A DNA stretch of 64,000 bases from Bacteroidota bacterium (lineage in GTDB: Bacteria > Bacteroidota > Bacteroidia > AKYH767-A > 2013-40CM-41-45), in NCBI GenBank assembly GCA_003389385.1, contig QQVM01000020.1:186001-250000 (forward strand), in the 5' to 3' direction. The notes below the pieces were generated by a model. That model ran no database searches and was not told the origin of the DNA. It saw only the letters and a list, made by a program, of their open reading frames with translations. This document shows, in pieces, positions 1,828 through 21,257 of the stretch (its first letter is position 1; each line of letters begins with the position of its first letter). Position numbers and translations under genes: made by a program.

Positions 1828-4800
1828 TCAACGGAACAATGTTACGTGACCTATCACCCGGTGTTTCTGATCTTTGTAGTCAAAAACATCAATGACGTAT
1901 TCATACACATCAGTTTGACAAACATTTCCGTTGCCGAAGTATGTGCCGTCCCAAGGCTGGCTCGTACTTGTGCAGTGAAAAATCTTTAATCCCCAACGAT
2001 CCAAAATCCACATTTCATAGCTTTTCCAGCCTATCCCCTGAGCGATAAAAAAGTCATTAATGCCGTCACCGTTCGGTGTAAAAGCATTCGGAACATAAAT
2101 TGTAAATTCCTGTTCAACCCTGATTATACTGTAAATGGTATCTGTACATCCACCTATGCTTGTTACAATAAGCCTTACAATATAGGTGCCTGTGTCAGTA
2201 TATTCATGAACAGGATGTTGGATAAATGAAATGTCCGAGCCATCTCCGAAATCCCATTCGAATCTGATTGCATTAAAACTGTTATCAGTAAAATTAACTA
2301 TCGGTTGGAAAATGGAAACTTCATCTGCGCTCTGCTGAAAATCAGCAACAGGATAGCCGTACACAATAACAGCATTCGGAATCAGCATTGAAGAAGTGCA
2401 TCCGGTTTCTGAAACAAGATTCAGTGAAACATCATACTCGCCGGGTATAGTGTAAATATGTGAAGGATTTTGTTCAGACGATGAGGTGCCGTCGCCCAAA
2501 TTCCAAGTATAAACTGTGCCAGGTGGAACAAATGAATAATCCTGAAAATTAGCATATACGGGTGTGCAGCCAATAATTGACTGCGGTAAGAATTGAGCAA
2601 CAGGGGCAGGTTCGACCAGGATAATTACTGACTGTGTTACAGTGGGGCTGCCGCATCCATCAGTGACGATCACCGTAAATGCTGAATCGGTCATAGGATA
2701 TACCGTATGTGCAGGGCCTGTGATCGCACCGGAGTTCCAAGTGTAAACATAGGGCCCGCCGTTTCCTCCGGTAGCAACAGCTGATATTGAAGCCGGTTCG
2801 CCTGCGCAAATTTCCAGAGGATCAGAAATTGTAAGCGACAAGGCTGGATAAACATCAACTGAGATTTGTTGGGCAGGAAGGCTGCATCCGTTTTGATCAG
2901 TCACGCTTACTGAGTAAATAGTGGCAGAATCGGGCGAAATTGTCTGAATGGAATCAGTTACGCCATTGCTCCAAAAATAGAAATACGGACTTGTGCCTCC
3001 GCTTACTGAAGCAGAAATTGTTGTGTACTGATTGATGCAAATTGTACCGGAACCACTAACTTGCATTTGAAGAGGTGTGGGTTGTTGAATATTAACTGAA
3101 CTTTGTTGAGTACATGAATTGGCATCCGTTACAATAACAGAATAGGTGCCTGATGGCAATCCGGAAATTTGCTGATTCGTAATTCCCAAACTTGTCCAGT
3201 TATAAGAATGTGGGGTAGTTCCGCCTGCTGAAGATACTGTGGCTGTTCCGTCTGATAATCCAAAACAACTTGCATCTGTATTTGAAGTGCTAATGGAAAG
3301 AATCGCCGGCTCTGAAATCTGTGTGCTGCTTTGTATTCCGCATCCATTTGCATCGGTAACAAATACTGAATATGAGCCTGGTGATAATCCTGTAGCGTTT
3401 GAAGAATTACTGACCTGAGGATTCCAGCTGTAAAAATATGGTGCTGTTCCGCCTGATGCACTAAGGCTTATGCTTCCGTTTGCCATACCATTGCATTGCA
3501 CGTTTGTGGATGTGCTTGTTGCGACCAATGCAGGAGGTTCGCTGATATTCAGATAGACAACTGTTATACATCCGTCATCATCAGTAACCTGAACTGTGTA
3601 ATTTCCTGCAATCAGGTTTGAAGCAGTATTTGAATTGCCTCCGAATGGCAGCCAGTTGTATGAATAAGGGGGTGTTCCTGCAGATGCGCTTACTGCTGCT
3701 GATCCGTCACTTCCTGCAAAGCAAGCCACATGGGTCAGCACTGAACCGCTTGCAGTTGGACCACCGATGTTTCCAACCAAAGCACTTGCAGTTGTTGTAC
3801 ACAGATTGCCGTCAGTTACGGTTACTGTATAAGTTCCTGGAACGAGTCCTCCTGCTGATGCATTTGTTGAACCAGTTGGTGACCAGTAGTATGTATAACC
3901 TGGCATTCCTCCGGTGGCATTTACACTGGCCGTGCCGTTCGGACTGCTTCCGCAGGATGCAGGTGTGCTGCTTGTGTTGAGATTTATCGCCGTAGGTTGA
4001 TTAATGTTAGCGGTGTTTGATGTTGTGCATCCGTTTGCATCCGTAACAATCACAGTGTAATTGCCTGCCTGGAGTCCGCTTGCCTGGCTCATAGTCCCGG
4101 CACTTCCAGACCAGATGTATGTATAACCTGGAGTTCCGCCTGATGCATTTACTGTCGCTGTTCCATCTGCTGATCCGAAACAGAGTGCGTCAGTGGAAAT
4201 TGTACTGGTATTCAATGCAGGTGGTTCATTGATCTGCATTGTTGAATTTGCTGTACAGCCATTCTGATCAGTTACAGTAACTGCATAAATTCCAATTCCG
4301 ATCTGGCTGAGTGATTGATTTCCATTCCCACCGGGACTCCATGTGTAAGCGAATGGCCCTGTCCCTGAATTTACATTTGCTGAAACTGATCCAGTATTGC
4401 CTCCGTTGCAAAGCACATTAGTTCCAGTAAGAATCACCGATGGCACAGAATATACACTTGTGGATCCGATGATACTGTCACTGCATCCATAAGGTGAAAC
4501 AACAATCAATTGTACATTGAAATTACCGTTACTCAGATAAGTGTGAGAAGGACTTTGAATTGTACTGGTGTTACCATCGCCAAAATTCCAATAATAATTT
4601 AAAGGATCGTTATTGCTGATTGTGGATGAGTTGGAAAAAACAGAAGGATTGTTTTGGCAAACAGGAATACTTGAAAATGAAGCAACTGGCAAGGGGGCTC
4701 CAATGAATGAAGAACTGGCTGTATGTACACAGCCTGAATCTGAAGTTACAGTTAACAAAACATTGAAAGTTCCTGTAGAAACAACATTTAATACAGGATT

Positions 4801-7476
4801 TTGATCTGTAGAATTCCCGAGCGATCCAAAGGTCCAATCAAAGCTCAAGCTTCCGGATGAAATCTGCGATGTATTAGTGAATGTGAAATTTGAATTGACA
4901 CAACTTACAGGAGGATGAGTGAATGATGCAAGCGGATTCGGATTAATATTTACAAATACAGTGGCAGTATCCTGACATCCATTAATATCAGTAATGGTTA
5001 ATAGGAATGCTGAATTGACATTCGGACTAACATTGATTGTCTGTGATGTGAAGCCGCCTGGGTTCCATGTGTAATTCAATCCACCGGATGCGGAAAGTGT
5101 TGCGCTTTCACCATTGCAGATGTATTGATCGGGGCTGGTAATGGCAATGGGAAGTGTGTTAACAGTCACAGCAACTGAATCACTCTCCACGCATCCGTTG
5201 ACGCTTGTCACTGTTAAAATATAAATAGTGTTGGATACAGGGGTGACCGTAACTTGCCTTCCGTTCAGGTTACCAGGATTCCATGTATAAGTATTTGTGT
5301 TTGGCCCTGGCCCGCCTCCTGATGCTGATAACATGATTACAGATCCATCGCAGACTGTTTGATCAGGTCCGGCATTGGCTTGTGGAAGCGGATGCACTGT
5401 CACATCCACATCAGCGTTATTAGTGCAGCCGTTCACATCAGTCACTTCCAATGTGTATGTGATTGACTGAGTGGGAGTAACTGTGATATTCTGAGAACTT
5501 ATTGCCCCGGGATTCCAGACATAAGTCACACCACCGTTCCCTGACAAATTCACGCTGCCACCTTCACAAATTGTCTGGGAAGTGCCTGCATTTGCTATTG
5601 GTAGCGGATACACTGTTAATGGTTGTGTGATCGAAGAAGTGCATCCGTCGGCGTTAGTTATAGTCAGGCTAATATTATAATTCCCTGCAGCAGCATAAGT
5701 GTTTGCCGGATTTGGTATTGTAGAGGAATTCCCGTCACCAAAATTCCAGGACCAGTTTGTAATTGCAGAGGATGAGGTCGAGGCGTCCATGAAGTTTGCC
5801 TGCTCACCGAGGCATACATTCGCCAGACTGAAAGCAGCAGCAGGTATGCTTGGTGCAATGACCAGGGTTTGAATCTGCGTGTCAATACAGCCACCTGCAG
5901 TTTGAACCGTAAGTGTAACCTGGTATGTACCGGCTGCCGCATATGTATGTGATGGGCTTGTGGAAGTTGATCCTGTTCCGTCACCGAAATCCCATGTCCA
6001 GGAACTTATATTCCCTCCTGAAATTGATGACTGATCGTTAAATTGGACATTCAATCCGGAGCATGCAAAATTCATATTGAAGGCAGCCACCGGAGTTGCA
6101 GAACCAGGATTGACCACTACTGTATCCTGCCTTGAACACAATCCATCTGAAGCTGTAACAATATAAGTGCCCGGTCCAGCTGAGATTGATTGTCCGCTTG
6201 CTCCATTATTCCAGGAATATGTATAGTTTCCGCTTCCTCCAATGGCGGTTGCGCTCAAGTTAACAGTGGAATTGCAACCCACAGAAACATCAGGACCTGC
6301 ATTCACATTGAGTCCTGAGACAATGATACAATAACTGAATACCTGACTGCCCAGGTAAGGGCAATTATCATCCTCAACCGTTACAGTAAAACAATAAGGA
6401 TTTGAACTGATCTGTGCCTGCGTAGGAGTCCAGCAGAAACTGGCCGACTGACGGTTACCAGGTATCACAGTGAATGTTGCGCCGGGAATGGAGTAGTCCC
6501 AGCTAACATATGTGTTCTGACTTGTATTCGGATCCGATGAAAAGAGATTGAAACATGTTTGCGTTCCTGCACAAATTGTTTGTGAGAAACTGCTTGTACC
6601 ATTGATGCCGCTCATGGCTGGCAATTGATTGTTGCAATTTATCACAGTAACCTGTATGTCCCTTTCAACACTTCCTATCAACACTCCGTTTCGGTATTCT
6701 CGCACCAGCACAGCCATAACCGTAACTTCCAGATTTGTCGGTGTCATGCAGATGTCTCCTGTCTGCGGATTGAAGGACATGGCTGGATTTGAAGTCAGTG
6801 GATTGCTTGCGGAGAAAGGAGGTCTGTATTGTATATTGAGATTAGGTGAATCATATGGTGTAATGAGTGTATACACAAGCGAATCACCGTCACTGTCGTA
6901 GGCTCCATGATTGTAACAATATTGTTGACCCTGACAGACGAATGGTACAGGACGGTTTCCAAATGTGGGTGAATTGTTGCACGGTGCAGCTACATTGTTC
7001 AAGGTGGCAAACACATACATTTGTGTTCCGCCTGGAATATTAATGTTGGTGATGGCATTGTTTCGGCAACATAAGTTGTACCCAAATGTCCAGTCTGTGC
7101 AAGGGCCGGGTAGATTAACTATGCCTCTGTAAATATACTCCTGCACTCCTGTGAATGTTCCTCCGCTACATGTGCTGGTTTGGGAAGGACAAAGCGGACT
7201 GATTTCGTTACCGGTACCCGTGATTGGATAAATGGTAGTGCTGAAAGCAGGGTAACATGAAGAAGAAAGAATGATGTTGGCAAAGCCGTCTGCTGGTACT
7301 CCAACGCAATCCCTGTAAAAAGAAAGTGTGATTTCGTATGTGTTTCCGCCAAGACAACGATAAGTAAGGTCTGAGCCCATAGAATGGGAGGCTTGCAGAT
7401 TTTCTGTGCAGCAAACAAAGAAGGCCATCACGAAACCCATTTTAAGTTCCCTGAATTGAAACGGTATTTTTACCAT
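1828..7476 (-). CDS. Giant SprB/PKD-repeat surface protein with T9SS type B sorting domain
   Basis: A 1882-residue secreted protein. A signal peptide spans about residues 1-29 (an alternative start is Met13). It is followed by an N-terminal domain beginning HSMGSDLTYRCLGGNTYEI, common in large Bacteroidota adhesins. Then come several PKD domains (WDFGDGTGS, WNFGDGNSS motifs) and Ig-like repeats with NAGPDQTVCDG motifs. Six or seven SprB-type repeats (ASGGTPGYTYIWSG) lie at about residues 1020-1540, followed by more PKD domains. The last 90 residues (FTPNGDGINDFF to GHVTLFR) are the gliding-motility-associated type B C-terminal domain recognised by the type IX secretion system. By family it should be exported to the cell surface and act in adhesion or gliding. 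Internal repeats make assembly errors possible, but the frame is intact. Confidence 0.9.
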   Translation of the reverse strand: MVKIPFQFRELKMGFVMAFFVCCTENLQASHSMGSDLTYRCLGGNTYEITLSFYRDCVGVPADGFANIILSSSCYPAFSTTIYPITGTGNEISPLCPSQTSTCSGGTFTGVQEYIYRGIVNLPGPCTDWTFGYNLCCRNNAITNINIPGGTQMYVFATLNNVAAPCNNSPTFGNRPVPFVCQGQQYCYNHGAYDSDGDSLVYTLITPYDSPNLNIQYRPPFSASNPLTSNPAMSFNPQTGDICMTPTNLEVTVMAVLVREYRNGVLIGSVERDIQVTVINCNNQLPAMSGINGTSSFSQTICAGTQTCFNLFSSDPNTSQNTYVSWDYSIPGATFTVIPGNRQSASFCWTPTQAQISSNPYCFTVTVEDDNCPYLGSQVFSYCIIVSGLNVNAGPDVSVGCNSTVNLSATAIGGSGNYTYSWNNGASGQSISAGPGTYIVTASDGLCSRQDTVVVNPGSATPVAAFNMNFACSGLNVQFNDQSSISGGNISSWTWDFGDGTGSTSTSPSHTYAAAGTYQVTLTVQTAGGCIDTQIQTLVIAPSIPAAAFSLANVCLGEQANFMDASTSSSAITNWSWNFGDGNSSTIPNPANTYAAAGNYNISLTITNADGCTSSITQPLTVYPLPIANAGTSQTICEGGSVNLSGNGGVTYVWNPGAISSQNITVTPTQSITYTLEVTDVNGCTNNADVDVTVHPLPQANAGPDQTVCDGSVIMLSASGGGPGPNTNTYTWNPGNLNGRQVTVTPVSNTIYILTVTSVNGCVESDSVAVTVNTLPIAITSPDQYICNGESATLSASGGLNYTWNPGGFTSQTINVSPNVNSAFLLTITDINGCQDTATVFVNINPNPLASFTHPPVSCVNSNFTFTNTSQISSGSLSFDWTFGSLGNSTDQNPVLNVVSTGTFNVLLTVTSDSGCVHTASSSFIGAPLPVASFSSIPVCQNNPSVFSNSSTISNNDPLNYYWNFGDGNTSTIQSPSHTYLSNGNFNVQLIVVSPYGCSDSIIGSTSVYSVPSVILTGTNVLCNGGNTGSVSANVNSGTGPFAYTWSPGGNGNQSLSQIGIGIYAVTVTDQNGCTANSTMQINEPPALNTSTISTDALCFGSADGTATVNASGGTPGYTYIWSGSAGTMSQASGLQAGNYTVIVTDANGCTTSNTANINQPTAINLNTSSTPASCGSSPNGTASVNATGGMPGYTYYWSPTGSTNASAGGLVPGTYTVTVTDGNLCTTTASALVGNIGGPTASGSVLTHVACFAGSDGSAAVSASAGTPPYSYNWLPFGGNSNTASNLIAGNYTVQVTDDDGCITVVYLNISEPPALVATSTSTNVQCNGMANGSISLSASGGTAPYFYSWNPQVSNSSNATGLSPGSYSVFVTDANGCGIQSSTQISEPAILSISTSNTDASCFGLSDGTATVSSAGGTTPHSYNWTSLGITNQQISGLPSGTYSVIVTDANSCTQQSSVNIQQPTPLQMQVSGSGTICINQYTTISASVSGGTSPYFYFWSNGVTDSIQTISPDSATIYSVSVTDQNGCSLPAQQISVDVYPALSLTISDPLEICAGEPASISAVATGGNGGPYVYTWNSGAITGPAHTVYPMTDSAFTVIVTDGCGSPTVTQSVIILVEPAPVAQFLPQSIIGCTPVYANFQDYSFVPPGTVYTWNLGDGTSSSEQNPSHIYTIPGEYDVSLNLVSETGCTSSMLIPNAVIVYGYPVADFQQSADEVSIFQPIVNFTDNSFNAIRFEWDFGDGSDISFIQHPVHEYTDTGTYIVRLIVTSIGGCTDTIYSIIRVEQEFTIYVPNAFTPNGDGINDFFIAQGIGWKSYEMWILDRWGLKIFHCTSTSQPWDGTYFGNGNVCQTDVYEYVIDVFDYKDQKHRVIGHVTLFR

Positions 7477-7938: not shown

Positions 7939-9945
7939 TCATCTTCTGATGATGATCTTATGAGTGCTAATGCCGGTGTTTGACTGAATCCTTAAAAAGT
8001 ATATACCTGACGCAAGCTTGTTCGATTTAACAGTTTGCATTTGCGAAACGCTATTTAACCCAAGTATTACGGAACCCTGCATGTTTACAAGTTCAACTTT
8101 CCTTTCTTCAGAAGTCTTCCATTTCAGATGAATCAAATCTGATGCTGGATTAGGGTAGATGCTGATATCAGAATTCGAAGTAAGATTGTTGACGTTCAAT
8201 GTAAAATCAATTGTGTGCATAGTTGTATTTGTGATCACTGGAGGATTATAGTCAAAATATATTCCTGCTGTGTTATACAGTACAGTGCCATGTGTTGTAC
8301 CGCTAAGCGGACGAATTCTGTAACTCACATATCCATGACTTTGAGGTTCGTTAGTGTTACTGTCAGGCAGCATGATGTTGTTGAACGTGAATCTTAAAAT
8401 ATCACCTGTCAGGATGTTGAAGCTCATAGGATGGCTATGTCCGGTGATTTCAAAAGAGTTTAAATCAAAATTCCTGTCAAGTGTGTCAAGAATATAAATG
8501 TCATAAGCTTCGGCAGTTCCGGTATTCTGAAACCGAATTGTGAAATCAATTAAAGTTCCGGGACGAATGGCATTTGTCGGACCTTCTCCTTCAGGAAAGG
8601 CTAACTTGTCATTCGGGTCCCAGCTTGTTCTAACAGGTGCGCACTGAATCACAGTGTTGTCAGCTGGATTCGTATCACCGTTAACTGGTTCGAGCAACAT
8701 GGTAACGCAAGCCGTGTCACCAAGTGTTGCGGATGTGGAAGTCATTACGTTGGCGCAATAACTCCAGTAATTTTGTGAAGGGGTATAATTCCAAATGAGG
8801 GTATCACCGCTGATTGTATAACTGCTTTGCGAATCCGGAAGCGCAGTGAGCATTGGATCCAGTATTACTTTTATTTGTCCTGATGGTGCATTGCATCCTC
8901 TGTCGTAGGCGAAAACGCAAACTCGTCCGGTTCTGCCTGGAATTATTCCGCTCAAAGTAACTGTTCCGGTGAGGTCAAAACCAGCGGGACAACTCAGGTA
9001 AAAGTCATTGCCGGAAGAAGGAACTGTTGAGACAATAAAATTACCTCCCGCAGGGCAGTTAACTACATAGTTTCCGCCATACCAATTATTTTGATGCACT
9101 CTGATTTCATATAATGGTCCATTAGGCACATTAAATGAATAAACTCCATTAATGTCTGTATGTGTCAATGCGACAATATTCCCGCCTGTGCTCAGGCTGA
9201 TGTTGATCCCTGCTAAAGGTGTGTCACCTGAATTAAAGATACAGTCAGTGTTATTGTCAAGATAGACAGTTCCTGCCAAAGGTCCGCAGTTGGAATTCAC
9301 TACGATAGGAACAGATATCATGGTATCGGCCACTCCACGTCCGCTAACAATAACCTGAGCGGTATATGTGCCTGCATTCGCATATGAATAGATCCACTGC
9401 GTGAAGAAAAAGTTTTGAGGATTCCACAGGTAGAATGTTGTATCGTTTCCATCGCCGTAATTGACCTCTATCAAGACTGAATCGGTTGTAGAAAAGCCGT
9501 TCGTCTGACCTTGCAGCATAAACTGCGCGTTTGCAGGTGATGTGCAGAAAATAGAAGAGATTGAATCAGGTCCAAAAAAAACAATGTCTATGAATGGAAT
9601 TCCTACTGAAGGAATCATGACCGACATGCAAAGAGTGTCTGTGCATCCCAGATCTGTTGTAACTGTAAGACAGACTGTGTATATGCCTGGAAAGCGGAAC
9701 GAATGAACAGGGTTCTGACTGCTGTCTGACGTTCCATCACCATAATCCCAAAACCAGTCGATTATTGTCCCGGGGCTTGTGCTTGACATATCTATGAACT
9801 GAATGACGGAGGAGTCTGGCGCAGCTGCATAATTCCAGTTGAAGGAAGCTGTGCATTGTGCACTGGAATCATTATTAAACGATGTCAAAAGTATAACCAT
9901 CGTCAACATGATCAGTTTTAAATAGGAATGGTAGAGTTTTTTCAT
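7939..9945 (-). CDS. Secreted PKD protein with T9SS type A sorting domain
   Basis: A 668-residue protein with a signal peptide at residues 1-29 (cleavage near SSAQC). A PKD domain follows (WDYGDGTSDSS, about residues 35-110). A second PKD-like domain covers about 115-215. A prealbumin-like/SdrD-type domain (GTVYLDNNTDCIFNSGD) comes next. Then a conserved block beginning WDPNDKLAFPEG and ending YFDYNPPVITN, which I recognise as a domain common in T9SS cargo (a DUF11-like/DUF7619 type). The C-terminal 75 residues (ISIYPNPASDLIHLKW to KIIIRR) are the type A sorting signal, so the protein should be secreted and anchored through the type IX system. No catalytic motif is visible; binding or adhesion is an inference. 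A terminator follows the stop. Confidence 0.9.
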   Translation of the reverse strand: MKKLYHSYLKLIMLTMVILLTSFNNDSSAQCTASFNWNYAAAPDSSVIQFIDMSSTSPGTIIDWFWDYGDGTSDSSQNPVHSFRFPGIYTVCLTVTTDLGCTDTLCMSVMIPSVGIPFIDIVFFGPDSISSIFCTSPANAQFMLQGQTNGFSTTDSVLIEVNYGDGNDTTFYLWNPQNFFFTQWIYSYANAGTYTAQVIVSGRGVADTMISVPIVVNSNCGPLAGTVYLDNNTDCIFNSGDTPLAGINISLSTGGNIVALTHTDINGVYSFNVPNGPLYEIRVHQNNWYGGNYVVNCPAGGNFIVSTVPSSGNDFYLSCPAGFDLTGTVTLSGIIPGRTGRVCVFAYDRGCNAPSGQIKVILDPMLTALPDSQSSYTISGDTLIWNYTPSQNYWSYCANVMTSTSATLGDTACVTMLLEPVNGDTNPADNTVIQCAPVRTSWDPNDKLAFPEGEGPTNAIRPGTLIDFTIRFQNTGTAEAYDIYILDTLDRNFDLNSFEITGHSHPMSFNILTGDILRFTFNNIMLPDSNTNEPQSHGYVSYRIRPLSGTTHGTVLYNTAGIYFDYNPPVITNTTMHTIDFTLNVNNLTSNSDISIYPNPASDLIHLKWKTSEERKVELVNMQGSVILGLNSVSQMQTVKSNKLASGIYFLRIQSNTGISTHKIIIRR

Positions 9946-10124: not shown

Positions 10125-13100
10125 CTATTGCTGTTGAGCAATTGTAATAGGGTAGGAAGCAGTGCTCACATGTTTGCCGGATGTGTCAGATACAAACAGG
10201 AACAGTCTTAGGTTTTTTCCCCGGCCGGGCACTTTAAAACTTACGCGTTTATTTTTGTCATCCTGTATGAAATCAATCTTCATCTCCAGAAAATCTTCTG
10301 CACAAAGCATCCATTCAAGATTGAGTTTTTTGCCGTTCAGGTCCTCTAAAATTGCATAATATGTTGCTTCCTGTCCACGGGTGACTTTATCTGAAGCTGA
10401 AAATATGTATACATCCTTTACAGGAAATTCTAACTTCTTCCCAGTCCATTTTTCCCTTAATGCATAATATGATTTTTTTACCCGGTCTTTGTGATCCGTG
10501 AGACCAAACCATGTATAAGATCCTTCCATTCTGTCGCGCCATGAATAGGCGATACCTCCAATGTTAAATCCTTTTTTTCCTTCCACATGCCTGTCCCAGC
10601 GTTCTGTATAAAGCTTTGCCTTGACAGAGCCTGGATCTTCCAATACACGTCCATGCCTGTCATGCTTGCTGAAATAAGTATCCCAATATCCCTGCGGACC
10701 ATATTCGGAAACCAGATAAGGCCTAAGTGTATCGAACATATATTGGACATCATTCAATGCTTCGAGCTGATCATCATAATATGAATTGATGCCAACTGCA
10801 TCCACAGAAGGTGCCCTTTGTGCAAAGCCGTAAATCTCTCCTGGAAGTTGATGCGAATTTTCAGCGACCGAAAAAACCGGATGGTTCGGATCTGCAATGC
10901 GGATTTTAATTGTAAGAGATTCTATGAAGTCCAAATATGCGTTCCTGACCAGAGTAAGGTAAGGTTGTCCGAACTTGTGCTTGCTCAATCCCCATACTTC
11001 ATTACCAAGACACCAGCTCAATACCGCAGGTTCATTCTTGAACTTCTCCACATTTGCAAGCACTTCAGCTTCGAGTTTCTTCAGCTTTGCCTTGTCAGCA
11101 TAATAGTCAATGTCCTGATCAAACCAAAAACCATACATCACTTTGAGGTTTTTCTCATGTGCGACATTGAGGATATTCTGATCATACGCTGAAATTCCAT
11201 ATCTGCGTATGGTATTTGCACCCATTAATCGAATTTTTTCAAAATCTTCCTCCAGCTTCTTGCGTGTAAGTGGAACATTGCCGTCTCTCCAGTCGGAATG
11301 CGTATTATATGCAATTCCTCTGATATAAAACTCATTGTTGTCGATAAAGAGTTTAAATTCCGGATACTTTCCTTTGACAAATGTTTTTTGGATATTGTTT
11401 TTTACATCCGAGGAACTTAAAACCGGAATGGATGAATAATTAAAGCTATGGGTTAGGAATTTACTTTTAATATTTTCACTCAATATGGAAGCCAGTGTTT
11501 TGTCATTGTGAAATGTCCAGTCTATTCTTGTTGATCCGTCAGCCGGTCTCCACTTGGTGGCACCCCAATGCGGGTCTTCATCACTGCAGAAGAAAACGAC
11601 TGAACGTATCTCGGGATAATTATTTTTAATTTTGCTAAGGGCATCTTTAAACCATTCAGCCCTATTGCCTCCAAAGCCTGTGGTGCCAAACTCAGATAGC
11701 ATTACAGGTTTTTTATATTTACGCAGCTTTTCTGAAAAAGGCTTGTAAAGAGCTTCAAAGTCAACCCACACACCGTTGGAATTTGCCAGACCGTAGTTCA
11801 GGTTTGTCACACCAATCCAGTCTACAAATTCATCTCCGGGATAATATTTTTCAAGTTTATCCTCTTCCCATGGATTCCAAACCCAAGTAACATTTGTTGC
11901 ACCAAGCCGGTTGAAATATTTTACTATATAATGATGGGCTTTGATAAATTCATCGGGTGTATTACCCCCTGATTCATAAGACCAGGAATAGGAGGGATTG
12001 TCCATCTCATGTGCAAAGCGCAGCATCACAGGTTCATTCAGATTCCTGATTTTTTCAGCATATGCATGTATGTATTTGTCTAGCTTGCCTTCTGTAATTG
12101 CAAGAAACACTTTCCAGTTGACGCTCAAATAAGGATCATCTTTAAATTCCGGAAAGTTGCTTGTATAGGGTTCCCATGTAATCATGGGTATAGATCCTGA
12201 TTTGCGTATTTCTCTGAACAGTTTTTCCGGAAAGTCTTTCAGGCTTGCAGGGCCCCAGTGCTGATAAATAGAAACAATATTAAACTTAACATCAATGGAT
12301 TTTTCAATTTCATGCACCGGAGACATATTATTTTGTCGGTCTGTATTCGGTGAGTAAACGCCAAAATAAAATCCTCCGTATTCTTTTTCAATGTCTGCAC
12401 TTATGATTGCAGACTCAGGAAGATCGATGCTGTCCGGCAGACTGCTAAATCCGATAGCTAAAAAAGGAATGAGTATACCCGCAGCAAATGCAAATCGTCT
12501 TAACTGACGAACAAGACCGCGGTACATGATATTCAGCCTGTAAAACAACTGGTCTGTCATATTCTCAATGCTGTGATGTGAGCTGAATTTATTAATGAGT
12601 TTTTGTTGCGATAAAATTACACATATTGTAAGCAATAATCCATTTATCCCTGCAAAGGATGCCATGGCTATGCTGTATGGATTCCAGTCGATATTGAGCC
12701 CGTAGCCAATACAGCCAAAACAAAATAACGCTGCTATAATATTCGGAATGCTTTGTTTCCATTCATTATTTATTTCATCATCTTTGGGAGTGGGAATATA
12801 AGGGATTCGAACTCTCAGAATTGTTGTAAAAAATCCAAGCAGATAAATCCACCAGGTTCCAAACCTGAGTACACCTCCTGTCAGATTCAAACTTCTTTCA
12901 TGTTCTTCAATGAGCCATTTTTGCATATACAAGCGGATGCACAGTGCTACAGTGAACAATGGAACAAAGCGAATGAAAAACTCTTTCATGTCTAGTGTCC
13001 AGGCCACATCTGCATAGATAAGTGCCAGCGATGGAACGATAATGTCAATCAGCGTGATAAATCCGTATAAATAATACATCGGCAAGGTGAAATAATGCAC

Positions 13101-14153
13101 TTTTTGAAAAGTGCTGAACTTCCTGAATTTACTGATGAAAGTCGTAAACAATAATTCAAAGGTGCCTCTTGACCACTTTAACTGTTGTTTGTAATAAGCG
13201 GACAGGCTGAAAGGAACAAGTCCTTTAGAAAGAATTTCAGGAATATAAACAGACTTCCACCCTTGTGCGTGAAGCTTCATTGCAGTATGCATGTCTTCAG
13301 AAAGTCCTGCCGCATGTCCTCCGATTGATTCAAGTGCTTTACGCCTGAAGCTGCAATTCGCTCCTATAGCCTGAACTGTACCCAGGGAATGCATCCCCAT
13401 CATCATGGGCCCGTAAAAAGAATAGGTCTGCTCGGCTGCGCCTTTGGCTACAAAGCTATCATTGTGATTGCTGTATCCCTGAACACATTGTACGAATCCG
13501 ACATTTTCATCCTGAAAATAAGGCAGTACCCTGTCAATAAACTGCGGTACCGGCACATGGTCGGGATCCAATATGATGCATATTTCACCTTCAGATTGCT
13601 TTAATGCGTTGTTGATGTTTCCGGCCTTTGCATCGATTTTTACTTTTCGTGTAACATGGATCACCCCGAGTTCATGACACATTTGTCTCACCTCTGGATC
13701 ATCGGCTTCATCACACAGATAATTTTTATGAGTATGCCGGATGTTTACCATTGCTGTGAGCGTTCTCTTTAACATGTCCTTCGGCTCACCCGCACAATAG
13801 GTCGTAAATATGTCGACTGTGTATTTTTGTTCACTTTTTGTTTTGGGAGGGACAGCTATGTGTGAATAATGGAACCATTCATGATTCCATCTCAACAGCT
13901 TGAATACAAGTGCAACCGATAAAAGTGTGTACAATACCGGGTGACCGATATGATTGTCACTGAAAAACCACCAGAGAAAATTTATTGTCAGTGCTACGCC
14001 AATGATACTGAGTATCCTGATGCAGAGGACTTCTTTTTTTTCGGGTATCGGCGCCTTCTTGATAAGCTCAAGCTTTCGAGAAGGTGTACTCTTAACAAGC
14101 AATTCATTTACTTCCTGCATGATTGAAAAAAAATCTAATGTGGATTTATTCAT
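10125..14153 (-). CDS. GT2 polysaccharide synthase fused to GH26-like and GH2-like hydrolase domains
   Basis: A 1342-residue three-part fusion. Residues 45-90 hold two membrane helices. Residues 110-340 are a family 2 glycosyltransferase of the cellulose-synthase type with DPD (196-198), SED (285-287) and QQLKW (323-327, the QxxRW-type motif with K for R), followed by several more helices to about 575. Residues 590-890 resemble GH26 (RFAHEMD with likely acid/base E716; LSEFG with likely nucleophile E821). Residues 930-1240 resemble the TIM barrel of GH2 (GNEVW E1052; VSEYG E1150), followed by a beta-rich tail. By family the GT part would polymerise a beta-glycan at the inner membrane while both hydrolase domains face the periplasm. 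Polymer identity is unknown; GH26 suggests mannan or mixed beta-glucan. It stands alone, with no BcsB-like partner visible. Confidence 0.88.
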   Translation of the reverse strand: MNKSTLDFFSIMQEVNELLVKSTPSRKLELIKKAPIPEKKEVLCIRILSIIGVALTINFLWWFFSDNHIGHPVLYTLLSVALVFKLLRWNHEWFHYSHIAVPPKTKSEQKYTVDIFTTYCAGEPKDMLKRTLTAMVNIRHTHKNYLCDEADDPEVRQMCHELGVIHVTRKVKIDAKAGNINNALKQSEGEICIILDPDHVPVPQFIDRVLPYFQDENVGFVQCVQGYSNHNDSFVAKGAAEQTYSFYGPMMMGMHSLGTVQAIGANCSFRRKALESIGGHAAGLSEDMHTAMKLHAQGWKSVYIPEILSKGLVPFSLSAYYKQQLKWSRGTFELLFTTFISKFRKFSTFQKVHYFTLPMYYLYGFITLIDIIVPSLALIYADVAWTLDMKEFFIRFVPLFTVALCIRLYMQKWLIEEHERSLNLTGGVLRFGTWWIYLLGFFTTILRVRIPYIPTPKDDEINNEWKQSIPNIIAALFCFGCIGYGLNIDWNPYSIAMASFAGINGLLLTICVILSQQKLINKFSSHHSIENMTDQLFYRLNIMYRGLVRQLRRFAFAAGILIPFLAIGFSSLPDSIDLPESAIISADIEKEYGGFYFGVYSPNTDRQNNMSPVHEIEKSIDVKFNIVSIYQHWGPASLKDFPEKLFREIRKSGSIPMITWEPYTSNFPEFKDDPYLSVNWKVFLAITEGKLDKYIHAYAEKIRNLNEPVMLRFAHEMDNPSYSWSYESGGNTPDEFIKAHHYIVKYFNRLGATNVTWVWNPWEEDKLEKYYPGDEFVDWIGVTNLNYGLANSNGVWVDFEALYKPFSEKLRKYKKPVMLSEFGTTGFGGNRAEWFKDALSKIKNNYPEIRSVVFFCSDEDPHWGATKWRPADGSTRIDWTFHNDKTLASILSENIKSKFLTHSFNYSSIPVLSSSDVKNNIQKTFVKGKYPEFKLFIDNNEFYIRGIAYNTHSDWRDGNVPLTRKKLEEDFEKIRLMGANTIRRYGISAYDQNILNVAHEKNLKVMYGFWFDQDIDYYADKAKLKKLEAEVLANVEKFKNEPAVLSWCLGNEVWGLSKHKFGQPYLTLVRNAYLDFIESLTIKIRIADPNHPVFSVAENSHQLPGEIYGFAQRAPSVDAVGINSYYDDQLEALNDVQYMFDTLRPYLVSEYGPQGYWDTYFSKHDRHGRVLEDPGSVKAKLYTERWDRHVEGKKGFNIGGIAYSWRDRMEGSYTWFGLTDHKDRVKKSYYALREKWTGKKLEFPVKDVYIFSASDKVTRGQEATYYAILEDLNGKKLNLEWMLCAEDFLEMKIDFIQDDKNKRVSFKVPGRGKNLRLFLFVSDTSGKHVSTASYPITIAQQQ

Positions 14154-16765: not shown

Positions 16766-17821
16766 TCAGGGTTTTGCAAATGCAGGATTAGTAAGGAAAT
16801 TGTAATCTGTCAGTGTTTTCAGGAATGCGATAATGTCGTCCATATCCTGTTGTGTCATTCTTCCTTTTACACTGGTGCGAAGGTTTGCGTCAAGATTTTG
16901 AGGGTAATGAAATCCGGTGTTGTAGTGATCCATGACTTCCTGTAAAGTGAAAAATCTTCCATCATGCATGTATGGCGCTGTCACTTCGATGTTTCTAAGA
17001 CTTGGCGTTTTAAATTTGCCAATATCACTGGCAAGCAAAGTGATTCTGGCTCTGCCACTGTCTGCAGCGATTGAATCCAGTCCTGTGTTCCTGAACTCAA
17101 AGTCGGTAAATGTGCTTCCCATAGTGTGACAGTGCACACAATCCCCTTTAAAAGGATCGGCATATAAATCCATGCCTCTTTGTTCCTGGGCGGTAAACGA
17201 ATCGAGTCCGCGCCTTACGCGGTCAAATTTTGAATCACCCGAAACCATAGTGCGCTCAAACTGGGCAATCGCTTTCATGATCATCGGTGTAGTGACTGTA
17301 CTTGATCCAAATGCTTTCCTGAACAATTCCGGGTACTCCGGATGAGCATTGAGTTCCTGAATTACATTAGCCAGGTCTTCGTGCATTTCCACCGGATTCT
17401 GGATCGGTCCGATCACTTGTGATTCCAGGTCTGCAGCGCCACCGTCCCAGAAGAAATTGCTGGCATAGCCAAGATTGAACAATGGCATTGCATTTCTGTC
17501 ACCGGGTATTCTGTCAATTCCAATGCTAAACTGTATTGTGCTGTCTGAAAATCCGAAATGTTGCTTGTGACAATCTGCGCAGGCCATTGTATTATCGCCC
17601 GAAAGAATTGGGTCGTAAAATAGTTTCCTGCCCAATGCAATCCCTTCTTCCGTCATTGGGTTATTTGCTGGAATTGGCATTGCAGGTAAGCCTGGAGGAA
17701 TATCGAGAATGTAATGCGAATGATTGTGTCCGTCTCCCGGATCTATAACATCATCTTCTTTTTTCTTGCAGGCAATGATTACAAAGCCGGCCAGCAATGC
17801 TGTCAGTAATAATTTACGCAT
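16766..17821 (-). CDS. Diheme cytochrome c peroxidase family protein, MbnH-like (copy 1)
   Basis: 351 residues with an N-terminal lipoprotein signal (LLTALLAGFVIIAC). Two c-type heme motifs, CADCH and CVHCH, and the MauG/CcpA superfamily block FKTPSLRNIEVTAPYMHDGR are present. The family either reduces peroxide or oxidises protein side chains. It follows the MbnP-like gene by only 4 bp, the arrangement known for MbnP/MbnH, where the diheme enzyme oxidises a Trp of its MbnP partner to kynurenine to build a copper site. I therefore favour an MbnH-like protein-modifying role over a classical peroxidase. A second, diverged pair lies at 40780-42592. Confidence 0.85.
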   Translation of the reverse strand: MRKLLLTALLAGFVIIACKKKEDDVIDPGDGHNHSHYILDIPPGLPAMPIPANNPMTEEGIALGRKLFYDPILSGDNTMACADCHKQHFGFSDSTIQFSIGIDRIPGDRNAMPLFNLGYASNFFWDGGAADLESQVIGPIQNPVEMHEDLANVIQELNAHPEYPELFRKAFGSSTVTTPMIMKAIAQFERTMVSGDSKFDRVRRGLDSFTAQEQRGMDLYADPFKGDCVHCHTMGSTFTDFEFRNTGLDSIAADSGRARITLLASDIGKFKTPSLRNIEVTAPYMHDGRFFTLQEVMDHYNTGFHYPQNLDANLRTSVKGRMTQQDMDDIIAFLKTLTDYNFLTNPAFAKP

Positions 17822-17825
17822 TTGA

Positions 17826-18602
17826 TTATTCAGATCTGTCGTATGAGAATGAATTCTGGAAGTTTTCGAAAAGGGAAGTCAGCCAGTCGCGGTCATCCAC
17901 ACTTGAGGATTGCCGGATGTTATTACCGTTGAATTCCACAGTATGAGTGGATCCGTAGAGTGAATTGAGGTCAAAGTTCAGATAAAGCTTCTTTTCATTA
18001 TTATCAATTCTGAGAGCTCCAATTGGAAGTTCTATCTGTGCAAGCACAGGGTCAGTACCATAGTGGTATAACAGGGGCTCAATGCTGCCGGTGCTGTCCA
18101 TGAAATCTCCTTCATGCTTGAAAAATATATAGCCGGTATTCCAAGTCCAAATCATCCCATGCACCGGATCAAGATCTCCGTCCTGCGCGCCTGTATGATT
18201 TCTAACCGGATCAACTCCAAGATAAAATCGGATTCGGTTATAAGTCCCGTTCGGAACTACATTGCCGTAAATTCTGCATGTTGAATCGACTTTCGCATTG
18301 ATCAGATCGTAATTATTGAATTTGAATTCTGAACTGTCGTCTTTGATTAAAACCACATTTGTGACATAATACTTCAGCATGTCTACCTGGTAGTTATTCC
18401 CGGCCGCATTCGTGTAAAGCCTTTGGCCAAATTGAATTTCCTGTCCACCCGCAAGATTTCTGAAAAAGATGGTAAGCTTACCGCTGGTGCCCGGATTAAC
18501 AGGAACCGGATCTTCGTTCTTTTTCTTGCAGGATCCAAAAGCAATGGAGAACAAAACTGCATAAATCAGCAGACTGACAGCTGAGGCTGAGTAGGATTTC
18601 AT
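17826..18602 (-). CDS. MbnP family lipoprotein (copy 1)
   Basis: The ORF opens at 18707, but Met36 (18602) starts a proper lipoprotein signal (SLLIYAVLFSIAFGSC), so I use 18602 (258 residues). The family signature is clear: YYVTNVVLI, GVDPVRNHTGAQ, and the WTWNTGYIFFKHEGDF block in which a Trp is the expected oxidation target in characterised MbnP. MbnP proteins are periplasmic copper-binding partners of MbnH-type diheme oxidases, here encoded 4 bp downstream. Copper binding is inferred from the family. The promoter region is shared divergently with the stress block starting at 18802. Confidence 0.82.
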   Translation of the reverse strand: MKSYSASAVSLLIYAVLFSIAFGSCKKKNEDPVPVNPGTSGKLTIFFRNLAGGQEIQFGQRLYTNAAGNNYQVDMLKYYVTNVVLIKDDSSEFKFNNYDLINAKVDSTCRIYGNVVPNGTYNRIRFYLGVDPVRNHTGAQDGDLDPVHGMIWTWNTGYIFFKHEGDFMDSTGSIEPLLYHYGTDPVLAQIELPIGALRIDNNEKKLYLNFDLNSLYGSTHTVEFNGNNIRQSSSVDDRDWLTSLFENFQNSFSYDRSE

Positions 18603-18696
18603 GGACTCGTAAATATGAGGAATACTTTCGCTAAAGTAAGAAAAAAAGCGTAAATTTCCTGTAGTGAGAGTGAAGCATGATTTTAGAGTAATCATG

Positions 18697-18711
18697 ATGA
18701 ATGTCATTCAT
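18697..18711. promoter_or_regulatory. Palindrome midway between divergent genes
   Basis: ATGAATG-T-CATTCAT is a perfect 7-1-7 inverted repeat. It overlaps TGATGAATGTCA (18695-18706), which fits TGAY-N4-RTCA. It lies 95 bp from both the mbnP-like start at 18602 and the DUF2267 start at 18802, so it could serve both directions. Confidence 0.45.
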
Positions 18712-18801: not shown

Positions 18802-19248
18802 ATGTCGCTACTGTTTGAAACCTACACTCACAAGGGCAATGAATTCCTGAATCATGTGTCTTCCTTCCTCACAATTAAGGAAAAATCCAGATCCGGGAGG
18901 ATCACAAGATGTGTCCTGAAAACTTTGCGAGACCGGCTCACACATGCTGAATCACTTCAATTACTCGCACAGCTTCCAATGGCCATCAAAGCACTATATG
19001 TGGACGGATGGAAATATTCTGAAAAGCCCAATAAAATAAAGACCATGCAGGAATTTATTGACGAAGTAATAAGGACAGACGGTAATTCTGCCTGGAAGGA
19101 TTTTTCCAGCGAAGAAGAAGTGATCGAAGGGATTAATGCTGTTTTCAAAACTTTGGCAATTTATGTGTCTCCGGGTGAAATAGAAGATGTGATGGCTGTT
19201 TTGCCAAGAGAACTGAAAATAATGCTAACCGAATCCATCATGTATTGA
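18802..19248 (+). CDS. DUF2267 domain protein
   Basis: 148 residues, almost entirely a DUF2267 domain: an alpha-helical repeat with LRDRLTHAESLQLLAQLP and the C-terminal AVLPRELKIML block. DUF2267 proteins are small cytosolic proteins often encoded with universal stress proteins and Hsp20 in low-oxygen regulons; biochemical function is not established. It is the first gene of a plus-strand series (DUF2267, baeRF3, USP, M50 protease) with gaps of 27, 56 and 66 bp, probably one operon. Regulation by the candidate FNR promoter upstream is inferred. Confidence 0.8.
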   Translation: MSLLFETYTHKGNEFLNHVSSFLTIKEKSRSGRITRCVLKTLRDRLTHAESLQLLAQLPMAIKALYVDGWKYSEKPNKIKTMQEFIDEVIRTDGNSAWKDFSSEEEVIEGINAVFKTLAIYVSPGEIEDVMAVLPRELKIMLTESIMY

Positions 19249-19275
19249 TTTGTAATATTTAAAAATGCAATAATT

Positions 19276-20367
19276 ATGAGCCAGTTAAAAGAAAATATAA
19301 GCATAATAGGTCAAACACATTTTCCGGCTATCTCCATTATTCTGCCACTTGCAGAAGGAAATGCGCGTGTGAAGGTTGCAAAGGATAGACTGAATACTTT
19401 GATAGAGCAAGCAGCCGTTGTCATGCTGAAAAAGTACAGCAAGCAAAAGACCGATGAAATGATTGATCGTATGCGCCGGACGGTGAATAAAATTGACTTT
19501 TCATCCAGTGCAGGTTCATTGGCGCTTTTTGTATCACCGGAATCAGACCGTGTAGTTCATTTACCATATTTTGCAGATGAGAAGGTTGTAGTGGACTCTT
19601 CATTTCAGGTGAGGGATTTAATCTATTCTGCCAAGCTCAATAAAAATTATTTGTTGGTGATAATATCCAGAAATAATGTGAAAACACTATTTGGATACGG
19701 AAGTATACTTCTCCCTATTGAGTTTGATGGTATGCCTGATAATGTCAATGAAATCAGGAATGAAAGAAGCTTTCCCGGATGGGACTATCTTGATACAAAT
19801 GCTTATGAGGAGAAAAACCTGAAAAACTATCTGAGATTCATAGATGAAGTGATTGAGGAAAATATCAAGTCTTCGAATTTGAATCTGATCATGACCGGCG
19901 ACATAAAAATTCTGGCCTACTTTCGAAATCATTCTAGGAATCGCGACAGGCTGATCGGCGAAATAGAAGGAAATTACGAAAAACATTCCCTAGCCCGGTT
20001 AAGTGCTCTGATTGAACCGCTTCTCAATAAGCTTATTTTGCAGGATCAGGAAGATGCGTTGAAGCTGCTTGAGCAATCAGTGAGTTCAGGAAATTTTTCG
20101 GCCGGAATTTCTCAGGTCTGGCGTGCTGCTGCTGAAGGCAGGGGCAGGTTGTTGCTGGTTGAAAAAGACTATTTTCAAAAAGCAGGTTTTGGCAAAGACA
20201 GCTATACTTTGATCTTAGATGAACTTGCTGATTCATCCCATAATGTTGTAGTCGACGCTGTGGACGATATCATTGAATTGGTACTAAAGCATAATGGTGA
20301 CGTTGTGTTTTTTGAAAAGGACACTCTCGCGAAATTTCAACGTATTGCAATTGTAAATCGCTACTGA
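19276..20367 (+). CDS. Balon-like ribosome hibernation factor (baeRF family 3)
   Basis: 363 residues without signal peptide or membrane helix. Overall architecture matches the bacterial archaeo-eukaryotic release factor family 3 (baeRF3): an N-terminal alpha/beta domain (PAISIILPLAEGNARVKVAKDRL), a central domain (VVDSSFQVRDLIYS) and a C-terminal domain ending in VDAVDDIIELVLKHNGDVVFF. Balon of Psychrobacter and its mycobacterial homologue belong to this group and occupy the ribosomal A site during cold or starvation-induced hibernation. I see no GGQ peptide-release motif, which agrees with a hibernation rather than a termination role. Neighbouring USP and Hsp20 genes support a dormancy function. 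Family by recognition, mechanism by inference. Confidence 0.75.
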   Translation: MSQLKENISIIGQTHFPAISIILPLAEGNARVKVAKDRLNTLIEQAAVVMLKKYSKQKTDEMIDRMRRTVNKIDFSSSAGSLALFVSPESDRVVHLPYFADEKVVVDSSFQVRDLIYSAKLNKNYLLVIISRNNVKTLFGYGSILLPIEFDGMPDNVNEIRNERSFPGWDYLDTNAYEEKNLKNYLRFIDEVIEENIKSSNLNLIMTGDIKILAYFRNHSRNRDRLIGEIEGNYEKHSLARLSALIEPLLNKLILQDQEDALKLLEQSVSSGNFSAGISQVWRAAAEGRGRLLLVEKDYFQKAGFGKDSYTLILDELADSSHNVVVDAVDDIIELVLKHNGDVVFFEKDTLAKFQRIAIVNRY

Positions 20368-20423
20368 ACGAAATATTTGACCCGGATAATATTATTTTAA
20401 TAAATTTCCTGAAAACCCAAATT

Positions 20424-21257
20424 ATGAAAACATTTCTTGTGCCTACGGATTTTTCTGAAAATGCTCTTCATGCTGCCAGATATGCTCTGACGATGAACAG
20501 GAAAATGAAGGCGAAAATTGTACTGTTTCACTCTTACGTGGTGCCTGTTTACGCAAGTGATATCCCTGTGATTGTTCCCATTGATGCAGAACTGCTGAAA
20601 GCAGGAGAAGAGTCATGCAGAAGGCTTCATGCAGCAATGCGTGCTGAATTTCCTGAGTCGGAGATAATAATGGACATCAAGCAGGGATATCCGGAGGAGG
20701 AGATAATTGAGGCGGCATCAAGTCACAAAGCAGACCTGATCATTATGGGTACAAAAGGAGCAAGTGGTCTGAGAGAGACTTTAATCGGAACCATTACTGC
20801 TTCGGTGATGGAAAATGCAACTTGTCCTGTCATGGCAGTTCCTTTTGAAACTGTTTTCAAGCCATTCGAAAGATTTGTTTTCGCGACAAATTACGCTGAA
20901 GGTGATTTCAGATATGTAGAGCAGGTACTAGAATTTGTGAAAGCTTTCGACGCAACATTAGTGCTCTTGCATATTTCTTCCGGGGAAATTGAAAAATCAT
21001 ACGAGTATGAAGCTATTGAAAGGTTTAAGGAGAGAATTAAGGACGACAGTGCTTATTCAAGACTTGAAATTAAGCTGATAGAAAGCACCGACGTATATGA
21101 AGTGCTGAATAAATTCATTGTAGATTCTAAAGCGGATGTAGTAGCAATGACAATGAGGAAAAGATCATTTATCCAGAAGCTTTTCAGCCGGTCAGTAACC
21201 AAAAGAATGGCTTATCATACTCACATTCCTTTGATTGCATTCCGGGCTGCAGATTGA
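20424..21257 (+). CDS. Universal stress protein, two UspA domains (copy 1)
   Basis: 277 residues with two tandem UspA domains. The first (about 1-145) starts KTFLVPTDFSENALHAARYA and carries the ATP-binding signature G-2X-G-9X-GT (GTKGASGLRETLIGT), so it should bind ATP. The second (about 148-275) starts FVFATNYAEGDF and has a divergent motif (MRKRSFIQKLFSRSVTKRMAYH), so nucleotide binding there is doubtful. Cytosolic. USPs of this tandem type support survival during energy limitation. It closely resembles the USP at 34401 (same RSxTKxxAYHxHIPL ending), indicating paralogy within the window. It follows the baeRF3 gene by 56 bp. Confidence 0.9.
   Translation: MKTFLVPTDFSENALHAARYALTMNRKMKAKIVLFHSYVVPVYASDIPVIVPIDAELLKAGEESCRRLHAAMRAEFPESEIIMDIKQGYPEEEIIEAASSHKADLIIMGTKGASGLRETLIGTITASVMENATCPVMAVPFETVFKPFERFVFATNYAEGDFRYVEQVLEFVKAFDATLVLLHISSGEIEKSYEYEAIERFKERIKDDSAYSRLEIKLIESTDVYEVLNKFIVDSKADVVAMTMRKRSFIQKLFSRSVTKRMAYHTHIPLIAFRAAD

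Follow-up and report, generated by a model that had tools for sequence, protein, structure and literature searches.

The gene at positions 10125–14153 on the minus strand of the window, by which we mean the whole analysed stretch of 64,000 nucleotides of the Bacteroidota contig QQVM01000020.1, encodes a GT2 synthase fused to two different glycoside hydrolase barrels of the families GH26 and GH158. The gene is one unbroken ATG frame of 1342 amino acids that occupies exactly this interval, and the fusion is real and conserved and, judged by its sequence, looks functional. We consider it probable that the protein is a processive inner-membrane β-glucan synthase that processes its own chain by means of periplasmic GH26 and GH158 barrels.

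The Pfam scan of the protein identified, in this order, a GT2 domain (E 2.5e-24), a GH26 domain (1.8e-11) and a barrel of the GH2_C type (1.6e-6), and phmmer against the PDB retrieved BcsA with the N-terminal part, CtLic26A with the middle one and GH158 enzymes (6pal, 9oro) with the C-terminal one. An AlphaFold2 model of residues 31–1230, computed with 51 relatives as input, reached a mean pLDDT of 87 and a pTM of 0.79, and a Foldseek search of this model against the PDB returned BcsA, CtLic26A and BuGH158. The original prediction of a GT2 synthase and two hydrolase barrels in one chain was thus borne out by all three approaches. Its four putative catalytic residues E716, E821, E1052 and E1150 are indeed glutamates at these numbers, align with the catalytic pairs of CtLic26A and BuGH158 and occupy the β-4 and β-7 places that clan GH-A demands, at a strand of the modelled barrels or immediately behind it. 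Because of these E-values and of a full-length relative in the genome G070 that is about 50% identical to the window fusion, the domain matches are not due to chance. A viral fold library searched with the fusion gave matches limited to GT2 and generic glycoside hydrolases, an Rfam search of the region gave no match, and the signal in promoter and terminator scans of the locus was no better than in shuffles.

All features given in the following lie on the minus strand. The GT2 catalytic domain (residues 100–345, positions 13119–13856; Pfam, phmmer and Foldseek) contains D148, D196/D198 and E286-D287, so that the D, DxD and (T/S)ED elements of a processive GT2 enzyme are present together with a Q-W motif, a TM channel and the fold match to BcsA. 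The Q-W motif reads QQLKW (residues 323–327, 13173–13187) and possesses a lysine where BcsA, BgsA and a cyanobacterial GT2 have the arginine of QxxRW. Across 84 synthases compared, D148, D196, D198, E286, D287, Q323 and W327 are invariant, QQ-x-KW is likewise found in all 84, and QQ[LI]KW recurs in 12 further loci. The channel part (residues 346–515, 12609–13118), delineated by hydropathy, comparison with BgsA and BcsA and the model, comprises TM3-TM4, an interfacial helix, a gating-loop-like YIPTPK and TM5-TM6.

Hydropathy places two TM helices before the GT2 domain, four after it and one more at residues 554–572 (12438–12494). The first two form an N-terminal hairpin (TM1-TM2, residues 42–87, 13893–14030) that is also helical in the model. 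The extra helix is preceded by RQLRR and followed by acidic residues, with five Lys/Arg before it and none after, and 68 of the 84 relatives possess a hydrophobic stretch at its position. Since the number of helices is odd and the GT2 domain is cytosolic, both barrels would come to lie on the periplasmic side. A topology prediction had been proposed as a check of the original prediction, and hydropathy combined with the positive-inside rule indeed assigns the C-terminal half with both barrels to the periplasm.

GH26 enzymes are GH-A barrels with an acid/base Glu (in an HE motif) on β-4 and a nucleophile Glu on β-7. The first barrel of the fusion (residues 590–880, 11514–12386), described as GH26-like from the outset, scores 44 bits against PF02156 with its cut-off of 20, matches CtLic26A ('Endoglucanase H', a GH26 lichenase) with an E-value of 1e-25 and superimposes on 2vi0 with a Foldseek TMt of 0.87. 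Its acid/base E716 (12006–12008) and nucleophile E821 (11691–11693) align with E109 and E222 of CtLic26A, as numbered by counting on the alignment.

The second barrel (residues 925–1250, 10404–11381) had been called GH2-like. While the barrel and both of its glutamates held, the family did not: GH2 was indicated just by the PF02836 barrel model (28 bits), whereas phmmer gave 1e-22 for the GH158 structures 6pal and 9oro versus 6e-6 for the best GH2 enzyme, and Foldseek matched 6pal with an E-value of 1.7e-13. GH158 enzymes are GH-A barrels with an N-E acid/base, a Glu nucleophile, a C-terminal Ig-like domain and no N-terminal GH2 domains; in the fusion, the barrel is preceded by GH26, and the sugar-binding and Ig-like sandwich domains that stand before the barrel in GH2 enzymes are not found. 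BuGH158 has E137 and E220 as its catalytic residues (PMC7157763), and its WGIGNE and ITEWGP motifs are matched in the alignment by the acid/base E1052 of a GNE motif (10998–11000), together with N1051, and by the nucleophile E1150 (10704–10706). The C-terminal tail (residues 1251–1342, 10128–10403), which lies outside the modelled range, is probably Ig-like, as behind GH158 barrels, judging from a weak second match to the C-terminus of 9oro. The domain searches thus recovered two distinct hydrolase families, GH26 and GH158.

The assignment of the second barrel to GH158 rather than GH2 points to a β-1,3- or mixed-linkage glucan as product. The best solved relatives of both hydrolases, a lichenase and an endo-laminarinase, act on β-1,3-containing glucans, and their specificities would make β-1,3- or mixed-linkage glucan the sugar and linkage of the product. 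CtLic26A and BuGH158 share fold and catalytic glutamate pairs with the fusion, but are secreted degradative enzymes free of any synthase. We discarded the GT2 domain as a guide to linkage, as its matches to BgsA (encoded on a plasmid), BcsA and a cyanobacterial GT2 all lie at about 25–34%, which leaves cellulose, BgsA and other synthases at much the same distance and unseparated. In the reading we prefer, the cytosolic GT2 domain would polymerise UDP-glucose and drive the product through the TM channel of the same protein, and the extra TM helix would set the two retaining GH-A barrels, arranged in tandem, where the chain emerges into the periplasm. At this point, the lichenase-type GH26 and the laminarinase-type GH158 may hold, cleave and/or rejoin the growing chain, and a short, possibly cyclised or branched, β-1,3- or mixed β-1,3/1,4-glucan would be released into the periplasm. 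The processing would thus consist of trimming, release or transglycosylation, with release or transglycosylation presumably preferred over full degradation.

A species scan with one genome per species yielded 232 relatives of the fusion synthase, of which the best 79 loci, the best-scoring third and thus a non-random sample, were used for locus comparisons. These 79 all belong to Bacteroidota or Balneolota, with Chitinophaga, Pedobacter, Flavobacteriaceae, Cytophagales, Prolixibacteraceae, Pontibacter and many MAGs among the hosts, and in nearly all of them GT2, GH26 and GH158 form one ORF. Among 396 genomes sampled evenly across the phylum, 16 gave a match; 14 of the matches are fused and two have a GT2-only frame. 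Ten genomes sampled from the window's own genus or family were free of the fusion, which indicates a patchy presence. A common and well characterised fusion would have counted against the original prediction; the fusion is widespread, but no publication treating GT2, GH26 and GH158 together was found in the open-access literature, outside of which most subscription journals lie. The fusion hence represents a widespread, apparently undescribed Bacteroidota architecture.

Most relatives are accompanied by a further hydrolase. In the analysed stretch of 79 of 83 loci, there is a GH158 gene apart from the fusion, about 440 codons long and mostly less than 300 bp from the synthase; by a rough test, 59 of 71 of its products start with a lipobox or a hydrophobic N-terminus. 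Its acid/base is Glu in all 79 readable cases and its nucleophile in all 81. The domains also occur in other combinations: next to GT2-GH26-GH158 we encountered GT2-GH26, GT2-GH158 accompanied by an intact GH26 that is encoded separately (L129, L130), and, in L131, a free-standing GT2 of 538 amino acids adjoining a likewise separate and intact GH26. Since the same domains appear both fused and as neighbours, there is good evidence that GT2, GH26 and GH158 act on one product. In the window genome, neither a separate GH158 nor a separate GH26 was detected, the sole such stretches being those of the fusion protein itself, and with BcsB missing as well, everything resides in one chain. Separate GH26-like proteins were also seen near the synthase at L075:8996–10711, L087:15124–16818, L129:3469–5148 and about ten other loci. 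They mostly measure about 540–577 amino acids, begin with a hydrophobic segment and retain HE and the nucleophile Glu in the examples checked, and the two that were scanned gave no Pfam GH26 match. In Chitinophaga japonensis (L037:4812–15056), a two-gene unit of GH158 and synthase is present twice in tandem.

In a sharper form of the preferred explanation, which is possible though rather unlikely, the barrels mainly transglycosylate and give rise to cyclic or branched periplasmic β-1,3-glucans, the protein being a Bacteroidota functional counterpart of NdvB, with later phospho-alcohol decoration by an MdoB/BcsG-like enzyme. GH26 and GH158 are both retaining clan GH-A families capable of transglycosylation, an activity that is, however, not readable from sequence. 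A precedent exists in the GH17-GT2 'Orphan'/NdvB enzymes of Pseudomonas and other genera, in which TM helices connect a BcsA-like GT2 with a GH-A barrel in the periplasm; this GH17 barrel has been proposed to cleave and cyclise the β-1,3-glucan of its own GT2, the cyclic glucan is phosphoglycerol-substituted, and an MdoB-like partner has been suggested (PMC10237404). Although this is the nearest published concept, the comparison marks our fusion as analogous to these enzymes and not a member of their group: they carry one GH17, whereas GH26 and GH158 are attached here at the opposite, C-terminal side, the Pfam scan of the fusion gave no match to GH17 (PF00332), and the QQ-x-KW motif and the separate GH158 gene of most relatives set it further apart. 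The fusion is a variation on the known synthase-hydrolase fusion idea, not a new category. Regarding decoration, several loci (L021, L022, L028, L030 and L036) harbor a membrane sulfatase-fold gene directly after the synthase, no more than about 12 bp away or overlapping. Those of its products that were read contain APATNNSM, with Thr at the place of the sulfatase Cys/Ser, presumably as in phosphoglycerol and phosphoethanolamine transferases, and such a neighbor recalls MdoB and the phosphoethanolamine transferase of the E. coli cellulose synthase. Two of the three proteins of this kind encoded at L021:10562–12997, L022:6819–9641 and L030:13794–16229 additionally show a weak CBM53 or Ig-like match at the N-terminus. 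Beside the window synthase, in contrast, there is no sulfatase-fold gene, and the window genome holds just two general sulfatase-fold proteins, 23–25% alike, neither of which was accepted as an MdoB-like orthologue.

That the product is instead a cellulose-like β-1,4-glucan, with the barrels acting as editing hydrolases in the manner of BcsZ, appears improbable, although the nearest named synthase is BcsA and the BcsA-BcsB-BcsZ system shares the GT2 fold, the D/D/D residues, the Q-W motif, the gating loop and the TM channel. The window synthase scores 152 bits against TIGR03030 (CelA), whose cut-off is 699, and the Pfam scan of the fusion revealed no PilZ domain. BcsB is absent not only from the vicinity of the gene, as originally noticed, but from the whole window genome, and we therefore rejected membership in the BcsA cellulose synthases. 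Moreover, the hydrolases are fused and belong to other families than in the BcsA-BcsB-BcsZ system, their nearest relatives being a lichenase and a laminarinase and not cellulases. By their families, they suggest a product similar to that of BgsA from Sinorhizobium meliloti and RiGT2 from Romboutsia ilealis, GT2 synthases of mixed-linkage glucan, of which RiGT2, like the window synthase, has no adjoining BcsB gene (PMC10374906). The presumed BgsA, unlike the window fusion, comprises 664 amino acids, lies beside a periplasmic adaptor gene and carries no fused hydrolase.

The hydrolase halves might also mainly grip the product while a separate GH158 cuts it, the glutamates of the window protein persisting by inertia or its fused GH158 having taken over; we give this explanation little chance, even if the states of the fused barrels lend it some substance. 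As many as 64 of the 84 synthases combine an intact GH26 pair with a fused GH158 devoid of its catalytic pair, a few of these sequences ending at a contig edge and being scored by the acid/base position alone. In 12, the situation is reversed, with the GH158 of the fusion intact and GH26 degenerate, and degenerate fused GH26 domains number 14 overall. Both barrels are intact in only four, namely the window protein, the G070 relative (L022), Pontibacter L025 and L026; of the remainder, three have no fused GH158 and one is truncated. On a tree of the GT2 domains, the 64 with a dead GH158 group together in a single clade with strong support, and GH26 switches between its states at least five times. 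As one barrel is dead in most relatives, at least one barrel can serve as a binding domain, and the separate GH158 keeps both glutamates wherever readable. Against mere gripping stands the window genome, which is without separate GH158 or GH26 and yet has kept all four glutamates on a long branch of the tree. With both sites intact and no separate hydrolase partner, the window copy is unusual by its sequence; intact glutamates are in themselves no proof of activity.

Most characterised GH26 enzymes are mannanases, which would make mannan a conceivable product and GH26 a mannanase. We dismissed mannan as substrate and consider it very improbable, since mannanases match the GH26 barrel merely with 1e-5 to 1e-4, far behind the lichenase, and GH158 acts on β-1,3-glucan (PMC7157763).

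Downstream of the gene, positions 1828–7476 of the window encode a large secreted-type protein with PKD, SprB repeats and a CHU_C type IX secretion signal, and positions 7939–9945 another with PKD, DUF7619 and Por_Secre_tail, which suggest a host with type IX secretion. At 16766–18707, a di-haem cytochrome c peroxidase of the MauG type adjoins an MbnP-family protein, and the two together may have to do with copper handling; a plus-strand row of genes at 18802–21257 encodes DUF2267, bacterial archaeo-eukaryotic release factor family 3 and universal stress proteins.

Our preferred reading of a self-processing β-glucan synthase can be extended, if only tentatively, to an undescribed class of Bacteroidota and Balneolota enzymes that combine polymerisation, export and transglycosylating maturation by cyclisation or branching in one polypeptide, with the barrels evolving by alternate inactivation and the window gene as the single-gene form. 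Catalytic residues have been lost from GH26 in some relatives and from GH158 in others, a natural experiment that could tell the cutting barrel from the gripping one. The fusion would define an uncharacterised glucan-making system, present in 14 of the 396 sampled genomes of the phylum, and provides a testable case of a self-processing synthase. Should this system make a periplasmic glucan, its product would be a Bacteroidota counterpart of the osmoregulated or cyclic glucans of Proteobacteria, and the fusion would constitute a compact enzyme for mixed-linkage or β-1,3-glucan oligomers.
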